DNA from: Clostridia bacterium
GTDB taxonomy: Bacteria; Bacillota_A; Clostridia; Christensenellales; Aristaeellaceae
Assembly (NCBI GenBank): GCA_017517815.1
Contig: JAFWYA010000041.1
Location: 1 to 25,116, forward strand
Reading direction: 5' to 3'
DNA: 25,116 bases
Below the pieces are notes generated by a model. The model did not search any database, was not told the origin of the DNA, and saw only the letters and a program-made list of their open reading frames with translations. Position numbers and translations under genes: made by a program. Positions 955-25,083 of this stretch are shown piece by piece. Numbering within the stretch: the stretch's first letter is position 1; each line of letters opens with the position of its first letter.

Positions 955-995
955 TGAAATCCCTCCTCAGGGTCATTTTGTGTTTGTTTGCCCTG

Positions 996-1001
996 ATTAT
1001 A
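996..1001 (-). promoter_or_regulatory. Candidate -10 box of the rhodanese lipoprotein unit
   Basis: On the minus strand the sequence reads GATATAATC, a perfect TATAAT -10 hexamer, about 42 nt upstream of the ATG at 954. No good -35 box is seen 16-18 nt further upstream, so the promoter may need an activator. Confidence 0.4.
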
Positions 1002-1036
1002 TCGAATTCAGTCTCGGTTTTCCGTGATGATATCAC

Positions 1037-1069
1037 ATAAAAGAGCCTGCCGGTGGATTACCGACAGGC
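1037..1069 (-). terminator. Rho-independent terminator of the superoxide reductase gene
   Basis: Read on the minus strand, GCCTGTCGGT and ACCGGCAGGC form a 10-bp stem with one mismatch around a 5-nt loop (1045-1069). The tract TCTTTTAT follows. It lies 16 nt after the desulfoferrodoxin stop codon and separates that gene from the downstream rhodanese unit. Confidence 0.75.
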
Positions 1070-1084
1070 CCTTGTCAAGGAAGT

Positions 1085-1462
1085 TTATACTTCCGTCTTC
1101 CACAGACCGTGGAGATTGCAGTAGGCGTATACGGCGACGGCCTTGTCATTACCAAGATTAAAGGTCACGTTGGGCTCTTCGCCGGGCTTGAGGTACTTGC
1201 GCTGACCACCGTTTTCAGTCTCGACATAGACCCATTCAATGTAGTGCTCATCGGCCATCGGATGATTGACGCTGCCGATGTTGACGTTGATTGCGCCGTC
1301 CTCAACGGTCACTGCGGGCAGGTGCTTTTCGCTGCTGGCTTCAACGGTATTGGGAACCAGCTCTTCCATCTTCTTTCCGCAGCAGACAACGGGAACGCCA
1401 GAATCATTGATCTTTTCGATGATATTACCACAGGTGCGGCAGATATAAAACTTCGTATTCAT
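1085..1462 (-). CDS. dfx: Desulfoferrodoxin (class II superoxide reductase)
   Basis: The 125-residue length is typical for two-iron superoxide reductases. The N-terminal desulforedoxin domain has Cys8, Cys11, Cys27 and Cys28, the ligand set for the FeCys4 centre I. The C-terminal neelaredoxin domain carries the centre II ligands: His47 in the catalytic EKH motif, His67 in NHPM, His73 in DEHY, and Cys115 and His118 in YCNLHG. The enzyme reduces superoxide to hydrogen peroxide without making oxygen, as expected for an obligate anaerobe, and acts in the cytoplasm with rubredoxin-type donors. The ATG at 1462 follows AGGAGGT. All metal ligands are intact. A relaxase remnant ends immediately upstream, so mobile DNA stops just short of this gene's ribosome binding site. 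Confidence 0.97.
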   Translation of the reverse strand: MNTKFYICRTCGNIIEKINDSGVPVVCCGKKMEELVPNTVEASSEKHLPAVTVEDGAINVNIGSVNHPMADEHYIEWVYVETENGGQRKYLKPGEEPNVTFNLGNDKAVAVYAYCNLHGLWKTEV

Positions 1463-2515: not shown

Positions 2516-4225
2516 TCAGACAGTTGCGCTTACAGGCTCGTATGCTACACGGACCCCTTTGCGGGTTTGCATCACCACCTTGGGTGTTTCCAATGTGGGC
2601 ACATCGGGAATATCCAACGTCCCTACGCAGTTGTAATAGATGGTGAGACGCTGCACCTGTACGCCGTCCAGTTTCTCAGCCTGATGAACTTCAATTCGCT
2701 GAATCAGCTCGTTTAGCATGCGTGGGGTGAGTTTTTTAGCACGGATGTACTTGCGTACGACAGCAATAAAAGCATCTGTGGTCATAGCTTGACTGCTATG
2801 CTTTTCCAGCTCAACCTTCGCTTTTTTGATCGTTTCAGCAAGCTCAGCCTGTTCCTTCTCATAGTTTGCACTCATGCGGGCATAACGCTCGTCAGAAATC
2901 TTACCCGCAACGTTATCCTCATACAGCCTTTCAAACAGCCGATCCAGTTCCTGATCCCTCTGCAAAAGTTTCGTAATCTCCTTTTCCCGGTGAGCCTTTT
3001 CCTGAAGAACAGCCTGCTGTGAATGTCCCATGACAGCCTTTACGAAGTCGCTTTCGTATCGGCTGGCAAACTTGGTCAGTCTCCGAATCTCGCTCAAAAT
3101 CACCTGTTCCAGAAAATCCACACGGATATAGTGAGTAGAGGTGCAAGTCCCCTTGGTGCTGTTATAATTGGAACAGTTGAAATAGCGGATATCATGATTG
3201 CTTTGGCTGAAATGGTAGTTGAGGTTGTGTCCGCAGTCCGCACACACCAGCAGGCCGGAGAACATATTTCGTTCACCATTCGAGGTGTTCCGCTTTCTCA
3301 TCTTTCCACGCTTTTCCTGAATCTTTGCCCAAGTTGATCGATCAATGATTGGATCATGGGCGTTCATGTGGATGGACATATTCTCCGGGTCATTCGGATG
3401 ACGCTTTTTGTTTTTGTAAGACTTGCTGTAGGTTTTGAAATTGATGACATCACCACAGTATTCCTGACGTGACAGAATTTTGATAATCGTACCCGAAGCC
3501 CAGTGTGTGCTCACATCCTCTTTGGGTTTACCAGGACGATTGACGCCTTTGCTTACCCAGTATGCTGCCGGTGCAAGAATATGTTCCTGCTCCAGAGTTG
3601 TCGCAATCTGATCCGTGCCCATCCCTTCCAGCGTCATGGCATAAATCTTGCGCACCACGCGTGCCGCTTCCTCATCAATAATCCAGTGTTTTGGATTGGC
3701 TGGATCTTTGATATAGCCATATGGCGGAAAGCTCAGCGGTTCGCCCGATAGACCTCTAATCTTGTTGCTGAGTCTCCGTTTCTTACTAATATCGCGTGCG
3801 TACCATTCATTGAACAAATTGCGAATTGGAGCGAGCTCGTTTTCTCCTGCTTCAGTATCAATACCGTCTGAAACAGCAACCAGTCTGACATCATGCTCTG
3901 GAAAGAACTCTTCGGTCAGGCGTCCGACTTCGATGTAGTTGCGTCCGAGACGCGAGAGATCTTTGACGAATACTGCCGCAGCATGTCCCTTCTCGATTTC
4001 CTGAAGCATTTCCTGAAAACCGGGCCGATTCATGGTGACACCCGAAATACCGTCGTCGAAAAAATGGACGAGATTGGTATATCCCATCTCTTTAGCAACC
4101 TTCGTGAGAAGTTTCTTTTGGTTTGCAACACTGTAGCTGTCGCCTTCCAAATTATCATCCCGTGAGATACGTTCGTACAGAAAAGCTGTGCTTTCCCTTG
4201 TTTTTTTGCTACCTGACCGTTTCAT
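2516..4225 (-). CDS. Large serine recombinase (TnpX/Tn4451 type)
   Basis: This 569-residue enzyme cuts and rejoins DNA through a phosphoserine link to move a transposon or integrative element. The resolvase domain (about 13-160) has LYERISRD with the catalytic Ser21, and KDLSRLGRN with the conserved arginines near 92-95. A recombinase domain follows (about 165-300), then a zinc ribbon with Cys328, Cys331, Cys351 and Cys361, a long coiled coil (about 385-470) and a C-terminal domain like that of TnpX-type recombinases. An in-frame TTG exists at 4252, but the ATG at 4223-4225 has GAGGAGGA in front at good spacing. All catalytic motifs look intact. tnpW lies just upstream, and the tRNA fragment and terminator lie just downstream. 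It is probably the mobility enzyme of the element that occupied this region. Confidence 0.95.
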   Translation of the reverse strand: MKRSGSKKTRESTAFLYERISRDDNLEGDSYSVANQKKLLTKVAKEMGYTNLVHFFDDGISGVTMNRPGFQEMLQEIEKGHAAAVFVKDLSRLGRNYIEVGRLTEEFFPEHDVRLVAVSDGIDTEAGENELAPIRNLFNEWYARDISKKRRLSNKIRGLSGEPLSFPPYGYIKDPANPKHWIIDEEAARVVRKIYAMTLEGMGTDQIATTLEQEHILAPAAYWVSKGVNRPGKPKEDVSTHWASGTIIKILSRQEYCGDVINFKTYSKSYKNKKRHPNDPENMSIHMNAHDPIIDRSTWAKIQEKRGKMRKRNTSNGERNMFSGLLVCADCGHNLNYHFSQSNHDIRYFNCSNYNSTKGTCTSTHYIRVDFLEQVILSEIRRLTKFASRYESDFVKAVMGHSQQAVLQEKAHREKEITKLLQRDQELDRLFERLYEDNVAGKISDERYARMSANYEKEQAELAETIKKAKVELEKHSSQAMTTDAFIAVVRKYIRAKKLTPRMLNELIQRIEVHQAEKLDGVQVQRLTIYYNCVGTLDIPDVPTLETPKVVMQTRKGVRVAYEPVSATV

Positions 4226-4308
4226 GATTCCTCCTCTCTGACGGTCAAACAATCAGCATTTACAAAATGGTTATACCATGCTTGATCGTCGTTGTCATGG
4301 ATACGGCG

Positions 4309-6287: not shown

Positions 6288-7076
6288 CTATCTTCCCAGC
6301 CGGAGCTTGTGATATTCCGTTTCCCAAGGCGAGTGGTGAAATGCATCTTCATGCCAGTTTTTAACCCGTGAAAGATTGCCTTCAATGCGTACAGTCCGAA
6401 GTGCCGGGCATTTCCCGAAAGCAGCTTCTTCCACTTCCTTCACAGCGGCAGGAATCATTACTTCCGCAAGGTGTTCACACGCTTCAAAAGCCGCATTGTC
6501 GATGATCCTGAGCCCAGCAGGCAAATGAATGCTGGTCAGATTTTTGCACATTTCAAATGCCCATGGATCAATTTCCTCCAGTCCATCCGGCAGTGTAACC
6601 TCTTGCAAATTCTCACAGCAAGTAAAGGCGCGCATACCGAGATAAGTCACATTTTCCGGAAGATGTATGGTTCTTATACTTACGCAGCTTTCAAATGCGT
6701 GGTGCCCGATCTCCTGTACGCTCTGTGGAAACTCAATGGCGGAAAGAGCGCGGCAGTCGCAGAAGGCCCATGGACCAATGGTTTTCACGGTCTGCGGCAG
6801 CTTTATGACCGACAGATGATGACACATGGTAAAAAGCTCACTTGGTATGCTCTGCAGCGATTCGGGCAGGATCACAGTTTGCAAGTTTTCGCATTTCCCA
6901 AACGCACAGTCGCCAATGACGGTCACATCATTGGGGATCGTGACGGAAATCAGTATTTGATTCCCGCAAAAAGCATTTTTGCCGATAGCTGTAACACCAG
7001 ATGGAATCGTTACATAGGGTTCGGTTCCCGCATATCTCAGCAGCACGTTGTTTTCAATGACAAACCCCTGATTCAT
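6288..7076 (-). CDS. BspA-like leucine-rich repeat protein without signal peptide
   Basis: The 262-residue protein is almost all LRR_5 (BspA, Treponema pallidum-type) repeats of about 23 residues. The repeated form is 'L..V.LP..L..I...AF..C..L', for example VIGDCAFGKCENLQTVILPESL. I count about eight or nine repeats from residue 20 to 235. BspA-like proteins are usually secreted and bind host or surface ligands. This one has no signal peptide or anchor, so a cytosolic recognition or scaffold role is more likely. Its ATG at 7076 overlaps the upstream gene's stop as ATGA, and AAGGAGA precedes it, so the two genes are translationally coupled. It lies within the kinase/protease cluster. Confidence 0.88.
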   Translation of the reverse strand: MNQGFVIENNVLLRYAGTEPYVTIPSGVTAIGKNAFCGNQILISVTIPNDVTVIGDCAFGKCENLQTVILPESLQSIPSELFTMCHHLSVIKLPQTVKTIGPWAFCDCRALSAIEFPQSVQEIGHHAFESCVSIRTIHLPENVTYLGMRAFTCCENLQEVTLPDGLEEIDPWAFEMCKNLTSIHLPAGLRIIDNAAFEACEHLAEVMIPAAVKEVEEAAFGKCPALRTVRIEGNLSRVKNWHEDAFHHSPWETEYHKLRLGR

Positions 7077-8465: not shown

Positions 8466-8789
8466 TTAAAACATCTTTTCCAGCTTATTCAGCGCGCTGA
8501 CCATCACCACTGCTACTACGGCACGGGCCTTGAGTTCGGTGGAAAGCGCATTGGCCCCGCTGGTATCGGCGATTGCTTCAGCGGACGCCTTCAAGCATGC
8601 CATCACAGCAGCCAGATCCTGCACAGTGAGTGCGCCGCGTTTGAAGTGGCGAAGCGCCTTTTGAAGAACCGGCTTCATGGCGTCCCCTCGGTTGATCGCA
8701 ATACCGATCTCTACCGCCTTGATCACAGCCGCCTTTTCAGCAGCATTGAGCACATTCATCTTGTAGGGTTTCTTTTCAAACAATGCCAT
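8466..8789 (-). CDS. Small helical protein, paralogue of the 7678-8004 product
   Basis: Using the ATG at 8787-8789, the protein has 107 residues beginning MALFEKKPYK. A longer start at 8834 lies inside the loop of a large hairpin, close to the predicted transcription start, and has no ribosome binding site, whereas GGAG lies ahead of 8789. The body contains AAEKAAVIKAVEIGIAI, LQKALRHFKRGAL, DLAAVMACLKASAEAI and STELKARAVVAVV..SALNKLEKMF. It pairs residue by residue with the 108-residue product at 7678-8004. Family and function are unknown. It is the first gene of the downstream unit and has its own copy of the shared cluster promoter at 8841-8883. Confidence 0.75.
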   Translation of the reverse strand: MALFEKKPYKMNVLNAAEKAAVIKAVEIGIAINRGDAMKPVLQKALRHFKRGALTVQDLAAVMACLKASAEAIADTSGANALSTELKARAVVAVVMVSALNKLEKMF

Positions 8790-8886: not shown

Positions 8887-11800
8887 TTATTCTTTGAGCA
8901 ATTCTTCCATTTCCGCGCCAGTCAGCTTGTTTTTCTTCATCAGCGCATCCACCATGCGGTCGATGCGGGGCTTGTTTGCACGGATGATGTCAATGGTCGT
9001 TTGCAATTCCTCCCGCAGGATTTCGTTCACGCGCCTGCGAACCGCGGGATCGCTCTGGGCGGTGCGGCTGTCAACGGCTGCAAGGCCGAAAGCGTCGTCC
9101 ATGCCGTAGGAGCAAAGCATGGCCGTAGCCACCCGCGTGGCCTGTTCCAGATCGCCGCTTGCGCCGGTTGAAACACCTGCCTCTTCTCCATAGTAGGCAA
9201 TCTCCGCAGCTCTGCCGCCAAGGCTGGTGCGGATGCGGCTGATCAGCTCCGCTTTGGTGGACAGCGGCCCCATATCCTTTGCGGAATGCTCCATGTAGCC
9301 GCCATGTCCGCCGCGTGCGACGATAGTGAGATAGCTGGGCGTATTGCCACCGAGATAGCACAGGAAGGCGTGACCACTTTCATGCCGTGCCACGCGCTCC
9401 AGATATTCATAGCCCCAATCCTTCTTTTCACCATGGCGGGTGATTTCGTAGGCTTCATCCAGCACCGTATCATCCAGAGGTTTCAGTGCCTTCATCGCCA
9501 TACGATTGGCCAGTTCCATCACAGATGCCAGATTGGCCGGGCTCATGCCCATGGAACGGGAGGCAAGACGGCGAACCATCTCGTCCGTTACACTGTGCAC
9601 CTTGATCTTATTCAGATGCATGCGCAGGAACTGTTCGCGCTCGGCTTCGTTGGGCAGATCCACCAGAATCTTTCGGTCAAAGCGTCTTGCCAGCGCCGCG
9701 TCGATCACGCCCATGCCGCCCTGACCTTCCTCAATGTCGAAGTTGGTGGCGGCCAGCACGAATACCGGGCGCTTGGGATCGACGGAAAACCCGTCCATCT
9801 CGGTCAGAAGGGCATTAAGTGCCATTTCCTCGCCGTGCGCATTGTTCGCACCGCCGCGCTTGCGGCCCACAGCATCGATCTCATCAATGAACAGAATGGC
9901 CGGAGCATAGCGTCGCGCCTTTTTGAACAGTTCGCGCACGCTCTCCGGGCCGCTGCCTTGATACTTGGTCACAAAGGCGCTGGCAACAGCCGGGATAAAA
10001 GCCACGTCGCTTTCGCCTGCCATGGCCTTGGCCAGCATCGTCTTGCCCGTGCCGGGAGGGCCGTAGAGCAGAACTCCCTTGGGCGGCTTGAGCCCCTGCG
10101 CAGAAAACTTTTTTGGTTTTTTCAGATAGTCGATAAAGAAGCGCAGCTCTTCCTTGGCGTCTGCCGCACCGCTCACATCCCCAAAGCGGATGTTGGGCTT
10201 CTGCACATCATCCAGCACGCTGCCTGCATCATCGGCGGCAGCCGCGCGCTTGATGGTGAAATCGCGCAGACGGATGGTGATGGTGCTCTCATCGGCGCTC
10301 AGCTTCGGTGCAGTTTCAAAGGAGAGCACCTTCCGCTCGGAGGCCATCCGCGCCGCCACGCCCTGCATGTACAGCTCGCGGCAGATAGCAGAAAGCTGAT
10401 CCTCCAGCACACTGAAATCCTCTTCCGGCTGAGTGAGCTTGCCCCTCGCTCCTGCGCGCACAAAGCTCATTTCCAGTTCCGGGTCGATGGTGAAGGCGGC
10501 AGTTTCCAGCAGATACACGGGTGTCTCCGGCAGTCTTTCGCGCAAGGATCGGAACAGACGGTTGCCGTCGTGGATCACGCCTGCGGCCATGGGCGAAAAA
10601 TCAAACGCGCCCATGCTGGGCAAAGCCTGATCAAATCCCTCATAGATCGTGGCGTTGTCCAGTGCCCAGGCGTCCTCCGCACTCTTTTCCGCAATGTCCA
10701 GAAGTACCAGCCGGATGTCCTTTTCTCCGGCAATTTTCAGCGCTTCCTCCACGCTTTGTGTGTCGTGGATGACATAGCCGTTCAGCCGTTCGCGGCAAAG
10801 GTTTGCAAAGACCGGCCTGCCATAGAGGAGAATTTCCGGTTTTTCCTGGGAGAAGAACAACGGCTGCACCGTTTTCGGCAGATCGTCTGTCTCCACGGTG
10901 AAATGTATCTGCTTGATGCCATCCAGCGCTTTGGCGAAACTGTCCTCGCCCCACAGCCTGCATACCTTGAACAGCTCGTTTTTGAAAAACAGCTCCGTTT
11001 GGGCGCGAAGGGTACGTGCATCCGCCGCGCCGCCCTCCTGAAACAAGAGCGCTGTGGACAACAGCGCGTCCGCGCTCACATGGATGCCATACTGCTTTTC
11101 AAAAAGAGCGCAGAAACGGTCAAATTCCTTGCAGCTGATCTTTTCCAGATGGTGTGCTTCCAGATGGTTGAACAAAAGCGGCCAGCCGGTCGCCATGCGG
11201 CTGGTGATGGCGGCAGGAAAGAATGCTTGTCCAGTCTGCGGATTTTTTTCGGTTTCCAGCGCGTTAATGAGCGTTTTGCGCGGAACGCCCGCCGCGTTCT
11301 GTCTGGCGTCTCCTTCATAGAGGCTGCGCCCTGCGTTGGAGGTGAAAATGATGATGGTATCGCGGAAGCTGATCTCCTCATCCAGATAGCGGTCATGCAG
11401 CCTGCCTGCGTCCAGTATCTGCAAAAACAGATGGATGGTGTTCAGGTGGGCTTTTTCAATTTCGTCAAAGAGCAAGATGCTGTGCGGATTCTGCTTCACA
11501 AAGTCGGTCAGCGTTCCGGCCTTGGCCCCTGAATAGCTCTTCTCAAAACCCACCAATCCCATATAGGACTGATGATCGGAAAAGCTGGACATGTCAAAGC
11601 GCTTGTAGGGGATATCCAGCGCCTCCGCCGCCTGCTCCGCAAGGAACGTCTTGCCCACACCCGGAGGGCCTGTGAACACGAAGATGGCACGCGGACGCTT
11701 GCGTTTTTCATCGCTGGCGGCCAGCACCTCGGCGGCGAACATGCCCTCTGCAAAGGCATGCACCACATGATCCTGCCCCTGTACGGCGGACAAAAGCTGC

Positions 11801-12342
11801 GCCCGCATACGGCGGATGCGGCTGGTGAGGGCAGGCAGGAAAGCAAGGCTCATTTCATCCGTCTTTTCGCCTGTGGCCGCTTCTTCCTTTTGAACAACGG
11901 GCTTTTCTTCCTTCTTTTTGATGGGACAGATCTGCAATATCATGTCCGTGGGATTTTCCAGTATGGCAAGCAGCAGATCATGGGCAGAGATAGCCTCGCT
12001 TTTGCGCTCTGCCGCAAACTGTGCTGCCTTCCCAAAGCATTTTGCAAGGGCGTCCGCCGAGGACAGCGTATTCTGGCGCACGGCATACCGCAGCAGCCCC
12101 CTTGTGCGGGAGGTGTCGATGCCATGTTTTTCAAAGGCTGTACGGATGCTTTTGATCTCATCATCCACCGCTTTCAGGCTGTAAGATGAGGAAGAACTGA
12201 CAAAATCCTTTGCCTGCACTTCCGCAAGCTTTAGAAGGCCGAGGAACAAAAACTCCACCGTTGCGTCCTCCTGATGGGCTGCCTTGGCTTCCGCCTGAGC
12301 CCGCAGCAGGACAAATTGCATGGCTTTGGTAAATTCGGGCAT
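8887..12342 (-). CDS. ClpN-AAA/receiver-like/FtsH (AAA + M41 metalloprotease) fusion protein
   Basis: This 1151-residue protein joins modules that normally occur in separate proteins. Residues about 1-135 form a Clp N-terminal repeat-like helical domain. Residues about 175-450 are a ClpB/ClpA-type AAA module with Walker A GPPGVGKT (225-232) and Walker B ILLFDEIE. Residues about 502-650 look like a response-regulator receiver domain with Asp549 (LVLLDI), Thr614 and Lys635 in the expected order, a roughly 50-residue insert, and no acidic pair after strand 1. Residues about 710-975 are an FtsH-type AAA with Walker A GPPGTGKT (761-768) and Walker B ILFIDEID. The M41 zinc peptidase follows, with HESGH (987-991) and Asp1064 in GASGDLEQAT. 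The usual FtsH N-terminal transmembrane segments are absent, so it should be cytosolic. The ATG at 12342 has GAGGAGG. It probably unfolds and degrades proteins under control of the adjacent kinases. Confidence 0.92.
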   Translation of the reverse strand: MPEFTKAMQFVLLRAQAEAKAAHQEDATVEFLFLGLLKLAEVQAKDFVSSSSSYSLKAVDDEIKSIRTAFEKHGIDTSRTRGLLRYAVRQNTLSSADALAKCFGKAAQFAAERKSEAISAHDLLLAILENPTDMILQICPIKKKEEKPVVQKEEAATGEKTDEMSLAFLPALTSRIRRMRAQLLSAVQGQDHVVHAFAEGMFAAEVLAASDEKRKRPRAIFVFTGPPGVGKTFLAEQAAEALDIPYKRFDMSSFSDHQSYMGLVGFEKSYSGAKAGTLTDFVKQNPHSILLFDEIEKAHLNTIHLFLQILDAGRLHDRYLDEEISFRDTIIIFTSNAGRSLYEGDARQNAAGVPRKTLINALETEKNPQTGQAFFPAAITSRMATGWPLLFNHLEAHHLEKISCKEFDRFCALFEKQYGIHVSADALLSTALLFQEGGAADARTLRAQTELFFKNELFKVCRLWGEDSFAKALDGIKQIHFTVETDDLPKTVQPLFFSQEKPEILLYGRPVFANLCRERLNGYVIHDTQSVEEALKIAGEKDIRLVLLDIAEKSAEDAWALDNATIYEGFDQALPSMGAFDFSPMAAGVIHDGNRLFRSLRERLPETPVYLLETAAFTIDPELEMSFVRAGARGKLTQPEEDFSVLEDQLSAICRELYMQGVAARMASERKVLSFETAPKLSADESTITIRLRDFTIKRAAAADDAGSVLDDVQKPNIRFGDVSGAADAKEELRFFIDYLKKPKKFSAQGLKPPKGVLLYGPPGTGKTMLAKAMAGESDVAFIPAVASAFVTKYQGSGPESVRELFKKARRYAPAILFIDEIDAVGRKRGGANNAHGEEMALNALLTEMDGFSVDPKRPVFVLAATNFDIEEGQGGMGVIDAALARRFDRKILVDLPNEAEREQFLRMHLNKIKVHSVTDEMVRRLASRSMGMSPANLASVMELANRMAMKALKPLDDTVLDEAYEITRHGEKKDWGYEYLERVARHESGHAFLCYLGGNTPSYLTIVARGGHGGYMEHSAKDMGPLSTKAELISRIRTSLGGRAAEIAYYGEEAGVSTGASGDLEQATRVATAMLCSYGMDDAFGLAAVDSRTAQSDPAVRRRVNEILREELQTTIDIIRANKPRIDRMVDALMKKNKLTGAEMEELLKE

Positions 12343-12609: not shown

Positions 12610-15600
12610 CTACTTCTCCAGTTCCCACTCCAGTTCATATACACTCACACCAACATCGGTCAGAACGGCTATCCGGAGCATATCTGCGCTGAAGGTGCAT
12701 GTTTTTGCACCAGGAACATCGATGCGCAGGGGCTGCGGCGCTTCTTCCTTCAAAAAATCCGCCACGCGGTACAGCAGGATTCCCGTCTCATCTGTTCGGG
12801 TAAGCCATGTTCCGTTCTGCACGTAATACTTTCCTTTTCCAAGTGCAAACGACTTCAAATAGCTGCCATCGGATAAGGAATAGAGCACCAGCGTGTTTTG
12901 AAAAGCCTGAACATCCTTAGCATTTTTGGAAGAGGTATCCCGTGCTTTTCCGGATAGTAAGCCACATATTCCGTGTTTACTATCTGCAAACGAAGAGACC
13001 CAGACCTTTCTGAGGATATTTCCGATGGATGTCGGCGTTTTAAAGGGAACTGTCTTTCCATCGGGGAGAGTTACTCCGCTTATATCAACGATCCTCCCGT
13101 CGGGAAGACATACAGGGAGGTTGAGCCAACTTGGCGACAGCTTGGTTTTGGAGACTTCAAAGCTTTGACTGTCTATCGTCAAAAAACTATGTTTCCAGAA
13201 GCCACTGCAGTGTGCAAGAAAACGGGAGCCGCCTACGGTTGCATACAGCGAGGATGAGACACTACTGGCACCCGGATGTTTCGTCAAGAGAACGGTTTTT
13301 TCCAATTTTCCATCCGGGAGAGACATAACATCCATCAACAGATCTTCCTTTCCCTTAAATCCGAGGCGGTAAATGTATACCGCTTTGCTGCCGATGAACC
13401 TTCCGTCATCAGGCCGTGTTTTGACAAAGGAGATCGGAGAGGCGCTATCGACAGGCCAGATATAGTTGGCGCGAAAACTCCCATCCATCAGAAATGCACC
13501 GTCGTCGGAAAGGTAAAAGGAAGTCATTTTGTCAAAACTCTTCAAAAACCGGAAGCCTCTGAGCTGTTGCAGCTCCTGATTTGACGCAATGGCACGATAG
13601 ATCCTTACGCAGTCCGGGGCAAACCGTTTTCCTTCCAGACTCCTTGCGCTTTCCAACGCATTGACGGCCTCCGACATTTTCCCTGCCGCAAGGAACGCTT
13701 TCGCCTGTGATATGGCCATTTCAAACTGTTCATCAATTTGAAGCTGCAAACCTGTATCCCGAAAGCGGCTGAGTTCCAGCGCGGCTTCCGTACAGGGCGT
13801 TGGGAAGGATACCAGAACGAGTCTGTTGTTGAAGACACGTGTTGTCAGATTCCGATAGGTGGTATAAACGCCAATAGCACGGTTTCCGTCAGGGTCCACT
13901 GTGAAAAAGGGACGTACAGCAGAATAGCCTGCTTTCATACTGCAGGCACAGATCCTGCGGTTTATATCCCACAGTCTTACGATTCCATTATCATGTCCGG
14001 TAACAGCAAGCCCACCGTCACGGGAAAAACAGATGGAATGCGTATCATTATCGATAGGATAAATCATGACCGGCGTTCCAATGGAATCAAACGCCATAAG
14101 GTGTTTGTCATATGCCGCAAAAAGCAAATCGTCCCGGGAAAACGCCATCGCCTCCGGATGCTCCCCGACACTTCTTTTCCAAAGGACAGCACCGTTCTCT
14201 GTATCCAGCACATGGAGAAACTTCCAGCCATCCGGTCCTTCAGACCAGGCAAGCCGCCTGCCGTCACGGCTCAGATTGAGATTCAGACAGGAATACTCTC
14301 CCTTGTAAATCAGCGTCTTTGTCGCAGGCTCCACCGTACAGAACCAGATAGCCTTATCCAACCCCATATAGTATTCATTTCTGGTCAGGCCGGAGCACAC
14401 GGAGGTTACATTTCCAGATTGGTACACCTGCTTTGAATTTCCGTCCGCCAGAGAGTAGAAGGCTATGCCCGAAGAGTTCTTCCCGAAGAATCCGCTTTCA
14501 TCCTCGCAGGGCTTGAGGGATGTTTCAAATGGAGCGTCAAGCCCGAAGGAGAACCGGATCCTGCCGTCCGGTCCCACATTTGCAACCTGCTGAGGTGTAT
14601 TCCTATTTTTGCCGATCAGGCAGGTGATGCCGCTCTTTTCAAAGGTCTGGCACATACAACCCCAGATATCGTAAAACAGCACTTCTTCAGATAATACATG
14701 TTCGGGCTGCGCCGCTGTCAGAACAGAGAAAACAGCTTCGTCATCCTCCGCGGGGATTCCCCGCAGTGCTGCAAGTTTGCGGCCCAGTTTGATACGCGCC
14801 TCTGGATCAGGAAGTGCAGAAACTGCATTCAGTGCCGCTAAGTCGTCAGTTCTGCCCTCCTGCCATTCATTGACGGCATAGTTGAATACTGCCTCAGGAC
14901 AGGCAGAGTTTTGCTCCAGCGCTTTCTTCCAGAGTTCTCGCGCCTCTGCCTTTTCGCCGAGGTCCAAAAAGCTGAGCGCCCGGTTGTTCAGGCTCTCCGC
15001 GGAATCTGCTGCGGCACTGGATGCAGGACGGGCGTAGTTCCTGCCGAAGCTTTCTCGGTAAATACCCTGGAGCGTCTCCTCCACAATGCCAAAGTCATGG
15101 GGTCTGTTTTCAGGCTCCGATGCAAGGCACTTTGCCAGCAGCTCTTTGAGCTTTTGGGGCATGGGGATGCGCGCCTGCTCAAAATATTCCCGGCAGTTGA
15201 GGCCAGCCATGGGGCCGGTATCGTAGCTCGCGCCTGCCCAGGGCTTGCAGCCCAGATACATCTCCAGCACGCTGACCGCCCAGGAATAAATGTCCGTCCG
15301 GCGCGTGAGGGTTTTGCCGTCCATCTGCTCCATGGAGCAGTAATGGGGCGAGCGCGCGCCGGAAGCGCTCACGATGGTACCGCCATCAGGTACTTCCACC
15401 TCCAGCACCGTCAGCTGTGCGCGGGCATTGGCGATGCCAAAGTCGGAAACCTTGGCGTCCCAACCAGAGGTAAGCATGAGGTTGTCGGGTTTTACATCCT
15501 GATGGATGAGTCCCTGTTCATGCGCATAATGCAGACCGCGCGCAAACTGGATGGCAATATCCAGCAAGCGTTTGTGCTGTTCGGCTTCGCTGCCCTGATA

Positions 15601-16086
15601 AAGGCTTTCATCGGCAATGCGGTCGCCGAGGCTGCCGTTTTCCATCCACTCCGAAAAGATGCTGGGCGTGCCGCCAATATCACGCACATAGTAGCAGGAC
15701 ACGATATTGGGATGCAGGCCCAGATCAATCCACACGCGGCATTCCTTGATGAAGCGCTCCTTGGTTTCGGGTGTAGCGAAAAAGGCGGGCTTGGGCCGTT
15801 TCATGGCAAGGTCGACATTCCAGCCGTTGTGATGCACCCGCCACACGCTGCCCATGCCGCCGTTGATGGCGCTGGATTCCACGGTGTAGGTGTCCATGAG
15901 GCTGGAGCCCTTCACGATATCGCTGTTCTGCAGGCTTTCTCCGCTGTGTTTCGCAGCCTCTGCAATGGCTGCTTCAGCAATGGAACCTTCATATACGGTT
16001 GCTCCGCTGTCCTCATATACCGTCGCGCCGTCGTTTTCGTAAACGGTGTCGTTTCCTTCATAGACGGTTTTGTCGTTGGCAGCCAT
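12610..16086 (-). CDS. Ser/Thr protein kinase with TVYE repeats and beta-propeller-like C-terminus
   Basis: The 1158-residue protein begins with four TVYE motifs (Thr7, Thr14, Thr22, Thr30). A Hanks-type kinase domain spans about 62-345, with glycine loop INGGMGS, Lys96 in AMKRP, HQDVKPDN in place of HRD (Asp197), DFG at 215-217 and SMEQM in the APE position. A TPR-like pair follows (about 365-410). The remaining 700 residues are repeated beta-strand units of WD40 or PQQ style, such as FSRDGGLAVTGHDNGIVRLWD, with a helical break near 790-850. No transmembrane segment is seen, so it should be cytosolic. Its ribosome binding site GGAGG touches the stop of the PP2C gene 11 nt upstream, so expression is tightly coupled. 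The catalytic Lys, Asp and DFG are present, so activity is likely. The propeller probably binds partners or substrates. Confidence 0.92.
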   Translation of the reverse strand: MAANDKTVYEGNDTVYENDGATVYEDSGATVYEGSIAEAAIAEAAKHSGESLQNSDIVKGSSLMDTYTVESSAINGGMGSVWRVHHNGWNVDLAMKRPKPAFFATPETKERFIKECRVWIDLGLHPNIVSCYYVRDIGGTPSIFSEWMENGSLGDRIADESLYQGSEAEQHKRLLDIAIQFARGLHYAHEQGLIHQDVKPDNLMLTSGWDAKVSDFGIANARAQLTVLEVEVPDGGTIVSASGARSPHYCSMEQMDGKTLTRRTDIYSWAVSVLEMYLGCKPWAGASYDTGPMAGLNCREYFEQARIPMPQKLKELLAKCLASEPENRPHDFGIVEETLQGIYRESFGRNYARPASSAAADSAESLNNRALSFLDLGEKAEARELWKKALEQNSACPEAVFNYAVNEWQEGRTDDLAALNAVSALPDPEARIKLGRKLAALRGIPAEDDEAVFSVLTAAQPEHVLSEEVLFYDIWGCMCQTFEKSGITCLIGKNRNTPQQVANVGPDGRIRFSFGLDAPFETSLKPCEDESGFFGKNSSGIAFYSLADGNSKQVYQSGNVTSVCSGLTRNEYYMGLDKAIWFCTVEPATKTLIYKGEYSCLNLNLSRDGRRLAWSEGPDGWKFLHVLDTENGAVLWKRSVGEHPEAMAFSRDDLLFAAYDKHLMAFDSIGTPVMIYPIDNDTHSICFSRDGGLAVTGHDNGIVRLWDINRRICACSMKAGYSAVRPFFTVDPDGNRAIGVYTTYRNLTTRVFNNRLVLVSFPTPCTEAALELSRFRDTGLQLQIDEQFEMAISQAKAFLAAGKMSEAVNALESARSLEGKRFAPDCVRIYRAIASNQELQQLRGFRFLKSFDKMTSFYLSDDGAFLMDGSFRANYIWPVDSASPISFVKTRPDDGRFIGSKAVYIYRLGFKGKEDLLMDVMSLPDGKLEKTVLLTKHPGASSVSSSLYATVGGSRFLAHCSGFWKHSFLTIDSQSFEVSKTKLSPSWLNLPVCLPDGRIVDISGVTLPDGKTVPFKTPTSIGNILRKVWVSSFADSKHGICGLLSGKARDTSSKNAKDVQAFQNTLVLYSLSDGSYLKSFALGKGKYYVQNGTWLTRTDETGILLYRVADFLKEEAPQPLRIDVPGAKTCTFSADMLRIAVLTDVGVSVYELEWELEK

Positions 16087-16097
16087 TTTCTTCCCTC

Positions 16098-16865
16098 CTA
16101 TGCAGTGATCTGGAGATAAACTGCCGCAATATTATCGCAGCCTCCGTGTGCGTTGGCGCTGTCGATCAGTCGCTGGCAAATCCGATCCGGACTTCGACTG
16201 GAACGCATGATGCGTGCAAGTTCCCGTTCCTCCGTCATGCCATACAGGCCATCAGAGCACAGCAGAATGCGATCTCCGGGATGTACCTCGCGGATGAAAA
16301 CATCCGGCGTTGCAGGAGACTGCATGCCCACAAAGGCCGTCAATCGGGAGCTGGCGGGATGACCCTTGGCTTCTTCCTTGGTCATCATGCCGTTTTTCAC
16401 CAGCATTCCAGCCAGATTCTGATCTTCGGTGACCTGCAAAGGCTTCTTTTTGTAACGGGGCAGCAGATAGGCTCGGCTGTCGCCCAGATTGATAAAGACG
16501 GCTTGATTCCCCAGCAACCAAACGCCGCAGAAGGTTGCGCCGTAAACAAAGCGCCCTTCGGTATTGCCGGCTTCATAGAGCCTGTCGCTCATCTGCTGAA
16601 CCAGCGCGGAAAGGGACTGCGCAGCCTTCCCTGCGTCGCGTTCTTCCTCATACTCGTTCATGCAGATGGGCATCAGCTCCGGCAGGGAGGTGCGCACATA
16701 TTCGGATGCGAGCTTTCCTCCGCTCAGACCGCCCATGCCGTCCGACACGGCAAAAAAACCCATGTCCGGGCAGAAAACCGCTTCGTCCATGTTGGTCTTA
16801 CGAAGCCTGCCGATGTCCGTCATCCACGCTGAACGGAAACGGTAGTCAAACAGAGGGTACTTCAT
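16098..16865 (-). CDS. PP2C-type Ser/Thr protein phosphatase
   Basis: The 255-residue protein has the PPM metal-dependent phosphatase motifs in order: DIGRLRKTNMDEA (variant of R..NED), VSDGMGG with Asp42, GDSRAYL, LLCSDGLYG and GGCDNIAAV. The acidic metal ligands are kept, so activity is expected. It is soluble and lacks extra domains. It should reverse phosphorylation by the two kinases that flank it. The ATG at 16865 overlaps the stop of the FHA kinase by 1 nt (TGATG), and the next kinase starts 11 nt after its stop, so the three genes form a coupled writer-eraser-writer set. This arrangement is like PrkC/PrpC pairs of Firmicutes and the PpkA/PppA/Fha control units of type VI secretion, but no secretion genes are seen here. 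Confidence 0.95.
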   Translation of the reverse strand: MKYPLFDYRFRSAWMTDIGRLRKTNMDEAVFCPDMGFFAVSDGMGGLSGGKLASEYVRTSLPELMPICMNEYEEERDAGKAAQSLSALVQQMSDRLYEAGNTEGRFVYGATFCGVWLLGNQAVFINLGDSRAYLLPRYKKKPLQVTEDQNLAGMLVKNGMMTKEEAKGHPASSRLTAFVGMQSPATPDVFIREVHPGDRILLCSDGLYGMTEERELARIMRSSRSPDRICQRLIDSANAHGGCDNIAAVYLQITA

Positions 16866-18730
16866 CAGAGAATTCCTTTCATGTCTGCTTTCAGCGACGC
16901 CGGAAGCGCAGCCACCAGATCGCGCCTAAAGGCGGCGGCGCTCTTGTAGCCGATCTCCGGCACTTCCACAAGCGCCTTGTCGATCACAGCGGCAATCGCA
17001 GGAGGAATGGAGGAATCGCGCTGACGGATGGGAACAGGCCGCTCCTGCACCAGCGTGAGCAGGATGTTTTTGCCCGGTTTAAAGTTGCGCGGGAACACGC
17101 CGGTAAGCATGTGATAGTAGCTGGCCGCAGCCGCCCACACGTCCACCTCCGGCTTGGAAAAACGGAAATCCTTGGCCTGCTGGATGGGCATGAACTGCGG
17201 CGTACCCATGGCGGAGCCTTCCTTGGTCATTTTGGTCATGCCAGCCGCCTGAAACGCCTTGGCCATGCCGAAATCGGCCACCATGGCAATGGGGCGGTCA
17301 CCGTCGTTGGACAGGAAGATGTTGCCCGGTTTCAAATCACGATGCACAACACCAGCGAAGTTCATTTCCTTCACGCCGCCGAAGAGGCCGCCCTTCACCT
17401 CGGCGGTCACAGCGGCATTGTGCACATAATCCAAACCGCTGAGCACCTGAAGGATAATCCATGTGGCAAGATTCAAAGAAAGCTTGCCGCCCTTTTGGGC
17501 CATCAGGCTGTCCGCGCTGCCGCCCTCGCACAGATCCATCAGGATATAGAAAACGCCGTTGGCACAGCCGGACTGATAGGTGCGCAGTACGTTTTTGTGC
17601 CGGAGCATCTCTGCCATTTTGGCTTCGCGCAGAAACATCTTTTTGGAATGATCGTCCGCTGCCACCTGCGGAAGCATGGTTTTGAGGGCGTAGTATTTGC
17701 CGGTTTTGGTTTCGCGTACCTTCCACACCTCGCCCATGCCTCCGCGTCCCAGCCGCTTGACCTTCTCATAGCCCTGCACGGGAGAAGGGCCTGCCGGGGT
17801 TTCGTCCCTCTTCCCGGCAAGCATGGCTTCCAGCAGCGCTTTGAGCACCACTTCGGCTTCCTCGCGCTTGTTCATGCAGCTTTCGCAAAGCGTCTGGTCG
17901 TCAGACTTCGGGGTGAAGGCCTTGCCGCACTGTGCGCACTTCTTCTCTCTGGCTTTCTTTGCTTCCAGCAGCGCCTTCAGCTTTTCTGCTTCCTTGCGCT
18001 CCTGTTCTGCCTTTTCTTTAGCCAGACGCTCCTGCTCAGCTTTGCGCTTCTTTTCTTCCTCTATGCGGCGCTGCTCTGCCTCGCGTTTTGCTTTTTCTTC
18101 AGCTTCCTTCTTCTGCTGTTTTTCCCTTGCAATGCGTTCTTCTTCCTGACGCTTGCGTTCGGCTTCTTCTGCCATCCTTGCAGCCTCGGCTTCGGCTCTG
18201 CGCTTTTCGATCAGTCGGTTCAGCCGTTCCTGCTCTGCCTGAAGCCAGCAGTTTTCACAGATCCGCTTTCCTTCTTTGCTGATATGCACGGCGGCTTCGC
18301 CCTCGGGAAGTGTTGCGCCATCCTCCGGGACGGAAGCAGCGGGCAGCACAGCACCGCAGAGTGCGCAGGTTTCCGGCTGCTCAATCATACAGGTCAGTTC
18401 ACACTTGGAGCCAAGGCGCAGACGGTCGCCATGGTTGAGATCATAGGCTTCATGGCTGAGGTTCTGCCCCTCCTCGATGGTTTGTGTGCGCTCTCTCTGG
18501 CCGATCTTCTGATCGTTGAGGAAGGTACCGTTCAGGCTGCCGAAATCATACAACTTCACCTGCGGCGGCATAACTTCCAGCACGCAGTGATACCGCGATA
18601 CCGTGTTTTCCGGGCATACGATGCCGCAGTCCTCCTGGCGGCCAATATACACGCGGTTGGGTTCCGTGTATTCATAGGCTGCTCCGGCAGCGACGCCTTT
18701 TGTCACTTCAATGCGAACCTTTCCTGCCAT
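16865..18730 (-). CDS. FHA-domain, zinc-ribbon, coiled-coil Ser/Thr protein kinase
   Basis: The 621-residue protein starts with an FHA domain (about 20-105) with the phospho-Thr-binding residues GR (30-31), S.RH (45-48) and NGT (67-69). A first CxxC pair set (Cys122, Cys125; Cys158, Cys161) is followed by a charged coiled coil (about 165-262) and a second zinc ribbon (Cys265, Cys268; Cys282, Cys285). The Hanks kinase domain spans about 321-605: LGRGGMGEV, Lys350, HRDLKPGN (463-470), DFG (486-488) and an activation loop with Thr499, Thr502 and Thr510. All catalytic residues are present. No membrane segment is seen. The ATG at 18730 has GGAGGAAG. The FHA domain should dock on phospho-Thr peptides, and the TVYE repeats of the neighbouring kinase are candidates. 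Confidence 0.95.
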   Translation of the reverse strand: MAGKVRIEVTKGVAAGAAYEYTEPNRVYIGRQEDCGIVCPENTVSRYHCVLEVMPPQVKLYDFGSLNGTFLNDQKIGQRERTQTIEEGQNLSHEAYDLNHGDRLRLGSKCELTCMIEQPETCALCGAVLPAASVPEDGATLPEGEAAVHISKEGKRICENCWLQAEQERLNRLIEKRRAEAEAARMAEEAERKRQEEERIAREKQQKKEAEEKAKREAEQRRIEEEKKRKAEQERLAKEKAEQERKEAEKLKALLEAKKAREKKCAQCGKAFTPKSDDQTLCESCMNKREEAEVVLKALLEAMLAGKRDETPAGPSPVQGYEKVKRLGRGGMGEVWKVRETKTGKYYALKTMLPQVAADDHSKKMFLREAKMAEMLRHKNVLRTYQSGCANGVFYILMDLCEGGSADSLMAQKGGKLSLNLATWIILQVLSGLDYVHNAAVTAEVKGGLFGGVKEMNFAGVVHRDLKPGNIFLSNDGDRPIAMVADFGMAKAFQAAGMTKMTKEGSAMGTPQFMPIQQAKDFRFSKPEVDVWAAAASYYHMLTGVFPRNFKPGKNILLTLVQERPVPIRQRDSSIPPAIAAVIDKALVEVPEIGYKSAAAFRRDLVAALPASLKADMKGIL

Positions 18731-18743
18731 GATTCTTCCTCCT

Positions 18744-19907
18744 TCAGTTTTCCTCGACGGGCCGTTCCAGCAATTCGATCATGCTTCTGGTTTCGCTGGA
18801 GGGCAGCACGCCCTCGTCCGCGAAATACATGAGCACATCGTGCACATAATCCATCACGCCGCGGTCGCTGTAACTGGTGTAATGTTCTTCAAAGCAGAGC
18901 TCCATTTCGGTGCGGCTGCTCTGATCATAGTAGCGCATCATTTTTTCAGCGCATGTAAGGCGCGTTTGATAATCTGCAAGCAGCGGCATGAAAGAAGGAT
19001 CTTTTGCCGTTTCCAGCCGTTTCACAACCCTGACGAGATTCTCATATTCAAAGCCCGGATAACGCTCATGCGCCATACGCACTGCGCACAATATGGCCAT
19101 ATCCGTCTTGGAAGCCGGGTCACTCAGGCAGCGCAGACGCGCAAGCTCCAGCATGGTATCCATCTCTTCCTCAGTCATGTTGCTGTAGAGGCCGAAGGCA
19201 ATCAGCTTGTCCCTGAGGTAGCGCGTGGCGACAGCCTTGCCGCCCTGAATAGGATAAAGCAGATTCTTGAGGGTGACGGGAAGTTCGCCGCTGACAGACA
19301 TTTCATGGATGGTGCTGTCGCCGATATAGAGCTGGATAAACTGCACCAGCCGCTGATCCGGCAGGCTGGTTTTGGCATCAGCGGTAAAATGTTTCTCGTT
19401 TGCAGCAAACCATCCGCTCATCTGCCCCTGCTGTGCTGCCTCATACAGCTGCAGGCTCATCGCAGCGGTTTCCAGCAGCGTGGACTGTGCGCTTGGCGAA
19501 TACTCGGAAAGACCCAAGCGGCTGATCAGTTCCCGGTACATGGATACGGCATCCTCCTGCCCCTTGCAGTTGAGAAGCAGCAGCTTAGCGGCGCTGTCCA
19601 GCGGGTTCTTGGCGTACAGACGAGGATAGCCGTTGCGGTAGAGAAAGGCATCAAGCTCCGGCGCATCCATGGCAAGCGCCATTCCCAGTTCTTTCATGCG
19701 TTCCTTGCCGTTGGGACGCGCCTTGCCCTGCCGCCACTTATCCACCATGGTATGGCTCACCAGGCAGCGCGCTCCCAACGCCACAGAGGACAGATGCATT
19801 TCATCCATGCGGCTCTGCACATCCTGCGAAAAGCTGTAGGCAGCATGTCCGCAGATGGCTTCGCGCATTTCCTGCAGGTCGTCCAAAAGAAGATGGCGGA
19901 TGGTCAT
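18744..19907 (-). CDS. HTH protein with long helical C-terminal domain
   Basis: In the 387-residue product, residues about 28-95 resemble an XRE-like HTH: VALGARCLVSHTMVDKWRQG, then KARPNGKERMKELGMALAM. The segment DAPELDAFLYRNGYPRLYAKNPLDSA follows, a pattern like 'MD...ELLLLAGYPPLY...RRDA' found in a family of HTH proteins linked to Ser/Thr kinases in Clostridia. The remaining 280 residues are helical without a recognised domain. The ATG at 19907 follows AGGTG, and 13 nt separate it from the FHA kinase gene, so it is in the kinase operon. The plus-strand gene at 23033 encodes a shorter protein of the same general layout and also precedes a kinase. It may be the transcription factor controlled by the kinases, perhaps acting at the shared TGCAACTT promoters; this is inference. 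Confidence 0.75.
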   Translation of the reverse strand: MTIRHLLLDDLQEMREAICGHAAYSFSQDVQSRMDEMHLSSVALGARCLVSHTMVDKWRQGKARPNGKERMKELGMALAMDAPELDAFLYRNGYPRLYAKNPLDSAAKLLLLNCKGQEDAVSMYRELISRLGLSEYSPSAQSTLLETAAMSLQLYEAAQQGQMSGWFAANEKHFTADAKTSLPDQRLVQFIQLYIGDSTIHEMSVSGELPVTLKNLLYPIQGGKAVATRYLRDKLIAFGLYSNMTEEEMDTMLELARLRCLSDPASKTDMAILCAVRMAHERYPGFEYENLVRVVKRLETAKDPSFMPLLADYQTRLTCAEKMMRYYDQSSRTEMELCFEEHYTSYSDRGVMDYVHDVLMYFADEGVLPSSETRSMIELLERPVEEN

Positions 19908-23032: not shown

Positions 23033-23479
23033 ATGCCGGACAACAACCGAATCAGCACGGACGAGTTGCTGGCGCTGCTGTTCAAGGAGCGAAACCTGGA
23101 GCACTTTCTCCAGAGAAACGAATCTGCGTACCTGACGGCCTCCTTCAGCGACTACCTGAACCAGTGGTGCAGGCAGCACCTGGATGTGCCGGAGCAAGTC
23201 ATCCGGCGGGCGAACCTGGAAAAGTCCTACGGCCACCAGCTTTTCAGCGGCAAGCGCAACCCGTCGAGGGATACGGTTTTGCAGCTGGCCTTCGCCATGG
23301 AAGCCGATCTGCCCCAAGCGCAGGAAATGCTGCGGATCGCCCGCAGGAGCCCGCTGTATCCCCGCATCAAGCGCGACGCGGCGATCATCTACTGCCTTCA
23401 CAACCACATATCCCTGCTGGACACGCAGATCATCCTGCAGGACCTGAAATTGCCGCTGCTGGGAGGGCGAGAAAAGTGA
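23033..23479 (+). CDS. HTH protein paired with a Ser/Thr kinase
   Basis: In the 148-residue protein, residues about 45-95 form an HTH-like region: VPEQVIRRANLEKSYGHQLFSG, then KRNPSRDTVLQLAFAM. The segment ADLPQAQEMLRIARRSPLYPRIKRDAAIIYCL follows, given here by its features: 'A..ML..A..SPLYPR.KRDA..I..L'. This layout is common in small proteins encoded next to kinases in Clostridia. The larger 19907 protein shares it in part. The start at 23033 has AGGTGA. Its stop overlaps the kinase start as GTGA, so the two are translationally coupled. DNA binding is plausible, but the fold may instead serve protein contact. GC content and codon use differ from the AT-rich stretch upstream. Confidence 0.75.
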   Translation: MPDNNRISTDELLALLFKERNLEHFLQRNESAYLTASFSDYLNQWCRQHLDVPEQVIRRANLEKSYGHQLFSGKRNPSRDTVLQLAFAMEADLPQAQEMLRIARRSPLYPRIKRDAAIIYCLHNHISLLDTQIILQDLKLPLLGGREK

Positions 23480-25083
23480 AAGAATTGAAGCGCATCGTGG
23501 CGGACATGGAATCCGTGTTCGCGCAGAGCAGCTATCCCCAGGATTTCCTGGCGGCCTATGACCAGATGGAATGCCTGGCGAGCCATAAGGGCAGGGAGAC
23601 CTTCCTGGTGCAGCGCAAGTCAGACGGCGAGATGGCCATCGCTACCTGCTATGACCGCGCCGCCTTTCCGCTGCGCCCGGACATCCAGCTGCTGCAGGAC
23701 CTGAACCATCCCGGCCTGCCGCATTACTACGAGGAGTACCGGAACGAACAGATGCTGTGCGTCGTGCGGGAATACATCGAGGGCGAGCCGCTGAGCGCCT
23801 ACGCCCGGGACCGCCAGCTGTCCATAGAGGATATCGCGTCCATGGCAAGGAGGCTCTGCGACATCCTGCAGGTGCTGCACACCCATGAGCCGCCCGTGGT
23901 CCACCGGGACATCAAGCCGGAGAACATCATCGTGAAGCCCGACGGCGACATCGTGCTGATCGATTTCGACATTGCCCGCACCGTGAAGGCGGAAAGCGGC
24001 ACGGACACGGTTTTCTTCGGCACCAAGGGCTACGCGCCGCCGGAGCAGTACGGCTTCGGCCAGACGGACGGCCGGACGGACATCTACGCCTTCGGCGTGC
24101 TGCTGCGCTGGCTGGTCACGGGCAGCGACCGGGAGAACGGGAACATTTCCACCGACCCGGACCTGCAGCATATCATCGACCGCTGCACGGCCTTCGCGCC
24201 CCAGCAGCGCTTCTCGGACGTCGGCGAGGTCCGGCGGGCGCTGGAGAGCGTCGGCAGGCGCAAGCGGCGCTTTGATCCCAGGGCCGCCGTTGCGCTGGCG
24301 CTGGCGGCGATCCTGATGCTGTGCGCGGGTTTCGCGGTGGGCCGCTGGACCGACTGGCTGCGGCCCGTGGAAAGGATATCCTTCCAGGAGCCGCTGATCG
24401 AAAAGGCCGCGCGGCTGTGGATCGGCAAGGAGCAAGGAGCGCTGACCGAGGAGGACCTTGCCCGGGTCACGCATCTGTACATCTTCGGCGACCAGGCCTT
24501 CGGCGAAGCCGACCCGTACCACCAGTGTGACGTGGGCAGCAGTGTCGGAGGACCCATCCGCACGCTGGACGACCTGCAATTGCTTAAAAACCTGGAGGAG
24601 GTGCACATCGCCCACCAGGGCTATGTGGACGCGACGGGCATCGCGGGTATGCTGAAGCTGCATACCTTGGATCTGAGGCACATGTACCTCTCCGGCGTCG
24701 CCGCCATCGCGGACGCGCCCGGGCTCAAGCACGCGTTCCTGCCCTGCAACGGCCTCTCCGACGTGACGGCGCTTCAAAAGTGCCCGTGGCTGGAGACGCT
24801 GGACATCGGCCTGAACGACATCGCGTCCCTCAACCAGGTGGGCAGCTATCCCAACGTGACAAGCTTGGGCTTCATGTGGCTGGAGATGGACAACGTGGAC
24901 GACATCGCCCAGCGGTTTCCAAAGGTGAAGGCTGTGACGCTTCAGCACACGAGCATCAGAGATCTCTCCGGCCTGAAGGCGCTCCCCAACCTGAAGGCCG
25001 TCTGGGTGCTGAACGAGCAGGCCGACGCGGTGCGCGCACTGTTTGAGGGCACGGACGTGCAGGTGAACGTCACCGAAAACTGA
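23476..25083 (+). CDS. Transmembrane Ser/Thr kinase-like protein with extracytoplasmic leucine-rich repeats
   Basis: The 535-residue protein uses a GTG start at 23476 that overlaps the HTH stop, with GGAGG upstream; longer frames run into the HTH gene and are rejected. Residues about 25-255 form a Hanks-type kinase domain with HRDIKPEN (143-150), DFD in place of DFG (163-165) and FGTKGYAPPEQYG. The segment equivalent to the ATP-binding VAIK strand reads MAIATCY, with Thr57 where a lysine is expected. A transmembrane helix spans about 270-292, and an internalin-like LRR region (about 320-530) lies outside. The catalytic Asp145 remains, so the protein is either an atypical kinase or a pseudokinase receptor. 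It probably senses an external ligand. An AAGGTGGGCAG half-palindrome after the stop may start its terminator. Confidence 0.9.
   Translation: MKELKRIVADMESVFAQSSYPQDFLAAYDQMECLASHKGRETFLVQRKSDGEMAIATCYDRAAFPLRPDIQLLQDLNHPGLPHYYEEYRNEQMLCVVREYIEGEPLSAYARDRQLSIEDIASMARRLCDILQVLHTHEPPVVHRDIKPENIIVKPDGDIVLIDFDIARTVKAESGTDTVFFGTKGYAPPEQYGFGQTDGRTDIYAFGVLLRWLVTGSDRENGNISTDPDLQHIIDRCTAFAPQQRFSDVGEVRRALESVGRRKRRFDPRAAVALALAAILMLCAGFAVGRWTDWLRPVERISFQEPLIEKAARLWIGKEQGALTEEDLARVTHLYIFGDQAFGEADPYHQCDVGSSVGGPIRTLDDLQLLKNLEEVHIAHQGYVDATGIAGMLKLHTLDLRHMYLSGVAAIADAPGLKHAFLPCNGLSDVTALQKCPWLETLDIGLNDIASLNQVGSYPNVTSLGFMWLEMDNVDDIAQRFPKVKAVTLQHTSIRDLSGLKALPNLKAVWVLNEQADAVRALFEGTDVQVNVTEN

Follow-up and report, generated by a model that had tools for sequence, protein, structure and literature searches.

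One open reading frame in the 25,116-nucleotide stretch of clostridial DNA analysed here (the window) was previously predicted to encode a Clp-type AAA module, a receiver-like domain and an FtsH-type AAA-M41 protease, which raises the question whether these parts really form a single protein and how such a protein might be controlled. If they do, the locus would provide bacteria with an ATP-dependent protease that unites two unlike motors and a peptidase in one soluble chain, so that the coupling of a double ring could be tested without partner subunits.

Architecture and integrity of the fusion protein

The coordinates of the original prediction (8887-12342) were correct, but its strand is the minus strand: the frame is read from an ATG at 12342 to 8887, its sole stop codon is the terminal one, and the ATG is preceded by gaggaggaaaaccc, a good ribosome-binding sequence. 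Pfam matches above cut-off were obtained for AAA_2 (residues 217-356, E = 5.8e-34), AAA (757-895, 6.8e-48) and Peptidase_M41 (983-1148, 1.6e-26), and Pfam and the structural search agree with the prediction that one polypeptide combines a Clp-type AAA with a receiver fold and a full FtsH AAA-M41 unit. Both Walker motifs (GPPGVGKT, 225-232; GPPGTGKT, 761-768) and the zinc site HESGH with its downstream Asp (D1064) are present as predicted. According to the sequence and the structural model, the chain is thus predicted to begin with ClpN-like helices, to continue with a Clp D2-type AAA module and a receiver fold, and to end with an FtsH-type AAA module followed by an M41 protease (Table 1). No named family with this domain architecture was found in Pfam or NCBIfam, as had been anticipated.

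A frameshift or an assembly join of two genes, an artefact considered in the original prediction, was ruled out because the relatives are single chains (120 listed of 4175 relatives in a protein search, covering 86-100% of the query) and because the fusion is one open reading frame in all 37 loci examined, namely the window and 36 fetched loci, of which L215 is cut by the contig end.

Table 1. Features of the fusion gene and its surroundings in the window.
Feature	Position	Strand	Basis
Fusion protein gene, 1151 aa	8887..12342	minus	ORF, Pfam, homologs, ribosome-binding site
ClpN-like helical domain, residues 1-140, seven helices in model	11923..12342	minus	Clp_N sub-threshold, model
Clp D2-type AAA module and small domain, residues 166-486	10885..11847	minus	
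Receiver fold (pseudo-receiver), residues 502-640	10423..10839	minus	structural search, residue counts
Low-confidence insertion loop, residues 563-585, with T565-I-Y-E-G motif (10650-10639)	10588..10656	minus	pLDDT <50, motif counts
Conserved beta-hairpin between receiver and FtsH module, residues 671-699	10246..10332	minus	model, alignments
FtsH-type AAA module, residues 713-970; Walker A 761-768, D820/E821, R886/R887	9433..10206	minus	
M41 zinc metalloprotease, residues 978-1151; HESGH 987-991, D1064	8890..9411	minus	
106-aa partner directly downstream of fusion, start at Met17 of a 122-aa ORF	8466..8786	minus	homologs in close loci
Ser/Thr kinase with TPR and WD40-like repeats	12610..16086	minus	Pfam, ribosome-binding site
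N-terminal tail of this kinase, four TVYE motifs	15988..16068	minus	motif scan
PP2C (Stp1-like) phosphatase	16098..16865	minus	Pfam, NCBIfam
FHA domain and Ser/Thr kinase	16865..18730	minus	FHA 60 bits, kinase 129 bits
387-aa protein, weak helix-turn-helix match (E 0.0042, below cut-off)	18744..19907	minus	
Kinase with hydrophobic segment and leucine-rich repeats	23476..25083	plus	

Conservation and distribution

The 120 listed homologs (of 4175 relatives scored) share 63-98% identity with the fusion protein. Sixteen catalytic positions show no variation in the 121 sequences formed by the listed homologs and the window's member, and the catalytic residues of both motors and of the protease are, as far as can be judged from sequence, intact. 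A single listed homolog, P0039, is without the N-domain, and one bears a Deltaproteobacteria bin name. Searches of a genome collection with Walker-motif patterns retained 80 loci, among which at least eight (L001-L008) encode the fusion; seven of these are only 34-41% identical to it with the domain order unchanged, so that the order proposed as a search target recurs even in distant genomes. The other retained loci match mainly from residue ~710 onward and were taken as ordinary FtsH.

When genomes were scanned with the middle domain, 391 from the class gave two matches and 308 from the family gave 11. Profile scans gave matches in 27 of 396 genomes of the order (three of them weak, in frames of 183-241 aa), and in 4 of 299 of the phylum (two weak). 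In the family to which the Mediterraneibacter bin G002 belongs, 10 of 200 genomes matched (two in long frames of 1170 and 1625 aa, eight weak); one other phylum yielded no fusion-length match in 198 genomes and three weak partial ones (frames of 173, 254 and 618 aa). The weak middle-domain matches (frames of 145-464 aa) are probably ordinary response regulators and were not counted as fusions. These counts indicate a patchy family which, as sampled, occurs in Clostridia, some of them uncultured, and in related Bacillota. The surroundings of the fusion were fetched for 36 of the 41 genomes with strong matches (all except G005, G542, G862, G1190 and G1353). Viral contigs contained 71 relatives, the best two matching the FtsH half (residues 718-1146, 37%) and the others parts of residues 122-1140.

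Relationship to Clp and FtsH proteases

The N-terminal region matches Clp_N below threshold (16.7 bits, cut-off 20.7) and is helical in the model. It is followed by a Clp/HSP100 D2-type AAA module with Walker A at residues 225-232, D293/E294, N336, R382 and R443. The fusion protein resembles ClpB, ClpC and ClpA in the Clp D2 fold, an arginine that we take to be the sensor-2 residue, and the aromatic Y270, presumably the pore residue; its N-domain is a candidate ClpN-like one. In contrast to these HSP100 proteins it has no D1 ring ahead of D2, a single Clp-type module being detected by Pfam and in the model, and its peptidase belongs to the same chain (in cis), taking the place of a separate ClpP.

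The second half has the arrangement of FtsH, with an FtsH-type AAA module followed by an M41 domain that carries HExxH and an Asp as third ligand, in 89/89 and 121/121 sequences. The score with the FtsH family model TIGR01241 was 341.7 bits, below the NCBIfam cut-off of 600 bits. A tree, which is a weak test, separated 36 fusions (L215 left out) from two FtsH proteins, and the fusion coexists with other M41 genes in all 12 genomes checked. FtsH is described as membrane-anchored in a review whose main text contains neither "fusion" nor "receiver" (PMC9020784). The fusion protein differs in having a Clp motor and a receiver in front of the FtsH-type unit and in showing no N-terminal transmembrane anchor, its maximum 19-residue hydropathy being 1.33; the best values ranged from 0.97 to 1.73 in 37 fusions, compared to 2.92 and 3.14 in two FtsH controls, the usable ones of seven regions fetched. 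Of the "cytosolic, signal-gated unfoldase-protease" envisaged originally, the first attribute is therefore consistent with hydropathy, the chain being apparently soluble, whereas gating by phospho-Asp is not supported by the residues of the receiver (see below).

The nearest described two-AAA FtsH protein found is that of the FtsH ternary systems, which, as described by Kaur et al. (2020; PMC7159879), has two FtsH-type AAA modules, the first without P-loop and Walker B, and works with MoxR and vWA proteins. Measured against this description, the likeness lies in the two AAA modules with an FtsH-type second one, whereas the fusion has an intact Clp-type first AAA and an intact M41 domain. A Pfam scan of 18 window proteins detected neither the MoxR nor the vWA family. 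Among the titles and abstract openings listed by searches of an open-access library, none describes a Clp-FtsH fusion of this kind.

The receiver-like middle domain

All 50 structural rows agree on a (beta-alpha)5 receiver fold, which lessens the doubt originally attached to residues 500-650. The Foldseek rows include NtrC1, NtrX, LuxO and RssB, and one of the 50 rows of the plain Foldseek list (USP11) is no response regulator by title. Response_reg was matched only below threshold (E = 0.001, 19.6 bits; cut-off 30.2), and a match to the YycF profile covers the first half of the domain only, ending just past strand 3. Asp549 does occupy the predicted phospho-acceptor position at the end of strand 3, and Asp is kept there in 84 of 89 sequences. 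The two other members of the proposed triad, Thr614 and Lys635, exist but are displaced by one and three positions, respectively: a register anchored on Pro608 and Gly631, for which the CheY residues in the second half are those we take to be equivalent, places E613 in the Thr slot and Q638 in the Lys slot, and both candidates were therefore rejected as active-site residues. Lys635 occupies the aromatic slot, which in a 31-row domain set is mostly filled by Val (13), Lys (6) and Ile (5).

Among the 89 sequences, none has Thr or Ser in the Thr slot, Lys in the Lys slot or an acidic residue in the first acidic slot, and the Pfam scan, which covered 18 window proteins but not several small ORFs, detected no histidine kinase. 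Receiver-style gating by phospho-Asp, as suggested originally, is thus not supported. On the evidence of alignments and model, the middle domain is a receiver fold but apparently not a working phospho-Asp receiver, although it retains Asp549, which would be dispensable in a dead receiver. The fusion would in this case illustrate how a receiver fold may be re-used once its chemistry is lost. Receivers linked to an AAA+ ring or to proteolysis driven by ATP also occur in NtrC-type regulators and in RssB, the latter described as a receiver adaptor that delivers sigma-S to ClpXP (PMC7593790); the receiver of the fusion differs in its position between two protease motors and in the absence of most phosphorylation residues. 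The beta-hairpin that follows the receiver is retained even in distant relatives.

A threonine motif common to the receiver loop and the kinase tail

In the close clade, the receiver is interrupted between Asp549 and the next helix by the insertion 563-585, which contains NATIYEGF in the window's member. Among the window ORFs (stop-to-stop, at least 90 aa), T[VI][YF]E is restricted to the fusion and the adjacent kinase. The N-terminus of this kinase (12610-16086) reads MAANDKTVYEGNDTVYENDGATVYEDSGATVYEGS and lies behind a good ribosome-binding site. Database entry P0122 (1075 aa) starts the same kinase 83 residues downstream, within the kinase domain, and this later start hides the TVYE tail; a clear ribosome-binding site precedes the upstream ATG.

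Within the D549-F580 stretch of 121 fusions, T[VI][YFML]E occurs in 51 (shuffled maximum 4) and the relaxed T[VIL]x[EDQ] in 80 (shuffled maximum 16), leaving 41 without it; four further fusions that match the relaxed motif outside the insertion are excluded from the 80. The aligned columns of Thr565 and Glu568 contain Thr in 91 and Glu in 78 of the 121 fusions. A pattern for the glycine loop allowed the tails to be delimited in 108 of 120 kinase relatives, and 12 were dropped. At least two T[VILMA]x[DE] motifs are present in 95 of these 108 tails (shuffled maximum 21) and the narrower T[VI][YF]E in 31; 58% of the threonines have Asp or Glu at +3, and the Ser version occurs 44 times versus 438 for Thr, the tails containing 624 Ser and 844 Thr. 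At the close loci the kinase tail carries the motif in three of five cases (L217, L218 and L220, not L216 and L219). Since shuffling ignores kinship, these counts show a conserved pattern and not independent events. FHA domains prefer phosphothreonine with Asp or Glu at +3, and the T-x-x-D/E tails of Clostridial kinases could possibly constitute an FHA-docking array. N-terminal tails with T-x-x-D/E repeats are found in many Clostridial Ser/Thr kinases among the kinase relatives P0123-P0241.

Gene neighbourhood and proposed control

The TPR/WD40-like kinase, the PP2C phosphatase and the FHA-kinase lie upstream of the fusion on the same strand. All three are kept, with strong matches, in two of five close loci (L217 and L218), and all five contain a relative of the first kinase, which in L219 and L220 lies on the downstream side of the fusion; in L216, L219 and L220 the contig ends a short way upstream of the fusion. 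The lists of fusion and kinase relatives have 18 contigs of exactly equal size in common (119 of 120 rows in each list; 63 fusion contigs of at least 13 kb), which points to linkage. Because Ser/Thr kinase, PP2C and FHA form the neighbourhood, signal gating is plausible through a chemistry other than that proposed originally, and the kinases encoded beside the fusion probably switch it on or off.

The preferred reading, to which we assign a probability of roughly 0.55, is that the fusion is a dedicated soluble single-chain AAA+ protease of double-ring type, gated by Thr565 phosphorylation and FHA docking. Six chains would stack into two motor rings; the N-domain would pick substrates, the Clp-type ring would pull them in, the receiver ring would serve as a collar between the motors, and the FtsH-type ring would feed the substrates to the zinc protease below. 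In the close clade, the switch would be Thr565 in the receiver-inserted loop, phosphorylated by the neighbouring kinase, docked by the FHA domain and reset by PP2C. Several findings argue against this switch: the relaxed motif is absent from 41 of 121 loops, strong FHA-kinase and PP2C matches occur in only two of five close loci, and the motif is not exclusive to receiver loop and kinase tail, as T[VI][YF]E also turns up at one close locus, L217, both in a protein that Pfam does not match and at a further place of the fusion, and T-x-x-E/D at residues 68 and 959 of the window's fusion. Distant relatives have a shorter receiver loop without the Thr motif; Thr gating therefore cannot be the ancestral switch, and these loci must use other control, perhaps YbjN-type adaptors. 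More tentatively, and with the odds somewhat against it, the receiver may have swapped its Asp-phosphate switch for an inserted FHA-type Thr-phosphate loop, so that a Hanks kinase, PP2C and FHA would control a Clp-FtsH protease with two rings built from one kind of chain, a self-contained bacterial "kinase-gated proteasome". The Thr motif common to fusion and kinase offers a direct and cheap test of a possible control of proteolysis by Ser/Thr kinases in Clostridia.

It is rather unlikely that the receiver-like domain is a mere structural collar or adaptor-docking surface, with adaptors in control and the kinases acting elsewhere. Candidate adaptors exist in the 106-aa protein, which lies 3' of the fusion in the window and has homologs downstream of it in four of five close loci (L216-L219, not L220), and in YbjN-family proteins of distant loci, matched by tblastn in 14 of 36 fetched loci and located at most three called genes away from the fusion in 11; however, the Thr motif is conserved in an otherwise variable low-confidence loop and is common to the kinase tail. 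An aspartyl switch, in which a histidine kinase or a small phosphodonor would phosphorylate the receiver to gate both motors as in NtrC or RssB, is improbable: the fold, the conserved Asp549 and a second acidic slot with Asp or Glu in 41 of 89 sequences agree with it, but Arg509 fills this slot in the window's member, and the other active-site residues and a histidine kinase are missing as detailed above. A role in an anti-phage or conflict module, in which kinases would sense and the protease would act as effector, appears very unlikely as well. Such a role would suit the patchy occurrence of the fusion (11/308 genomes of the family and 2/391 of the class), the recombinase and toxin-antitoxin genes nearby in the window, a TIR-WD40 neighbour in L210 and, in L224, a tubulin-like neighbour and another that matches vWA below threshold, which have relatives in L226. 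However, no such neighbour is retained throughout the examined loci, and PADLOC on eight proteins gave only single-domain AAA, kinase or TIR-type matches.

Other neighbouring genes

Among the distant fusions, YbjN-family (PF10722) genes were located in L201, L203, L209, L210, L215, L221, L222, L224-L227, L229, L233 and L234, with three copies in L221. In L224 and L226, the fusion and the YbjN gene are followed by the large protein with the sub-threshold vWA match and the tubulin-like protein (PF13809, scanned in L224), and L200 and L235 have in common a vWA gene, a kinase-like gene and a gene that matches PP2C below threshold. A relative of the leucine-rich repeat kinase of the window sits at the same end of locus L217. 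The window further contains a large serine recombinase with DUF4368 (2516-4252, minus strand), adjoined by a RelB-ParE-like toxin-antitoxin pair (1478-2328), a BspA-type leucine-rich repeat protein (6288-7076, minus strand), and Rhodanese-domain and desulfoferrodoxin genes (553-1462, minus strand), which are ordinary genes of anaerobes.
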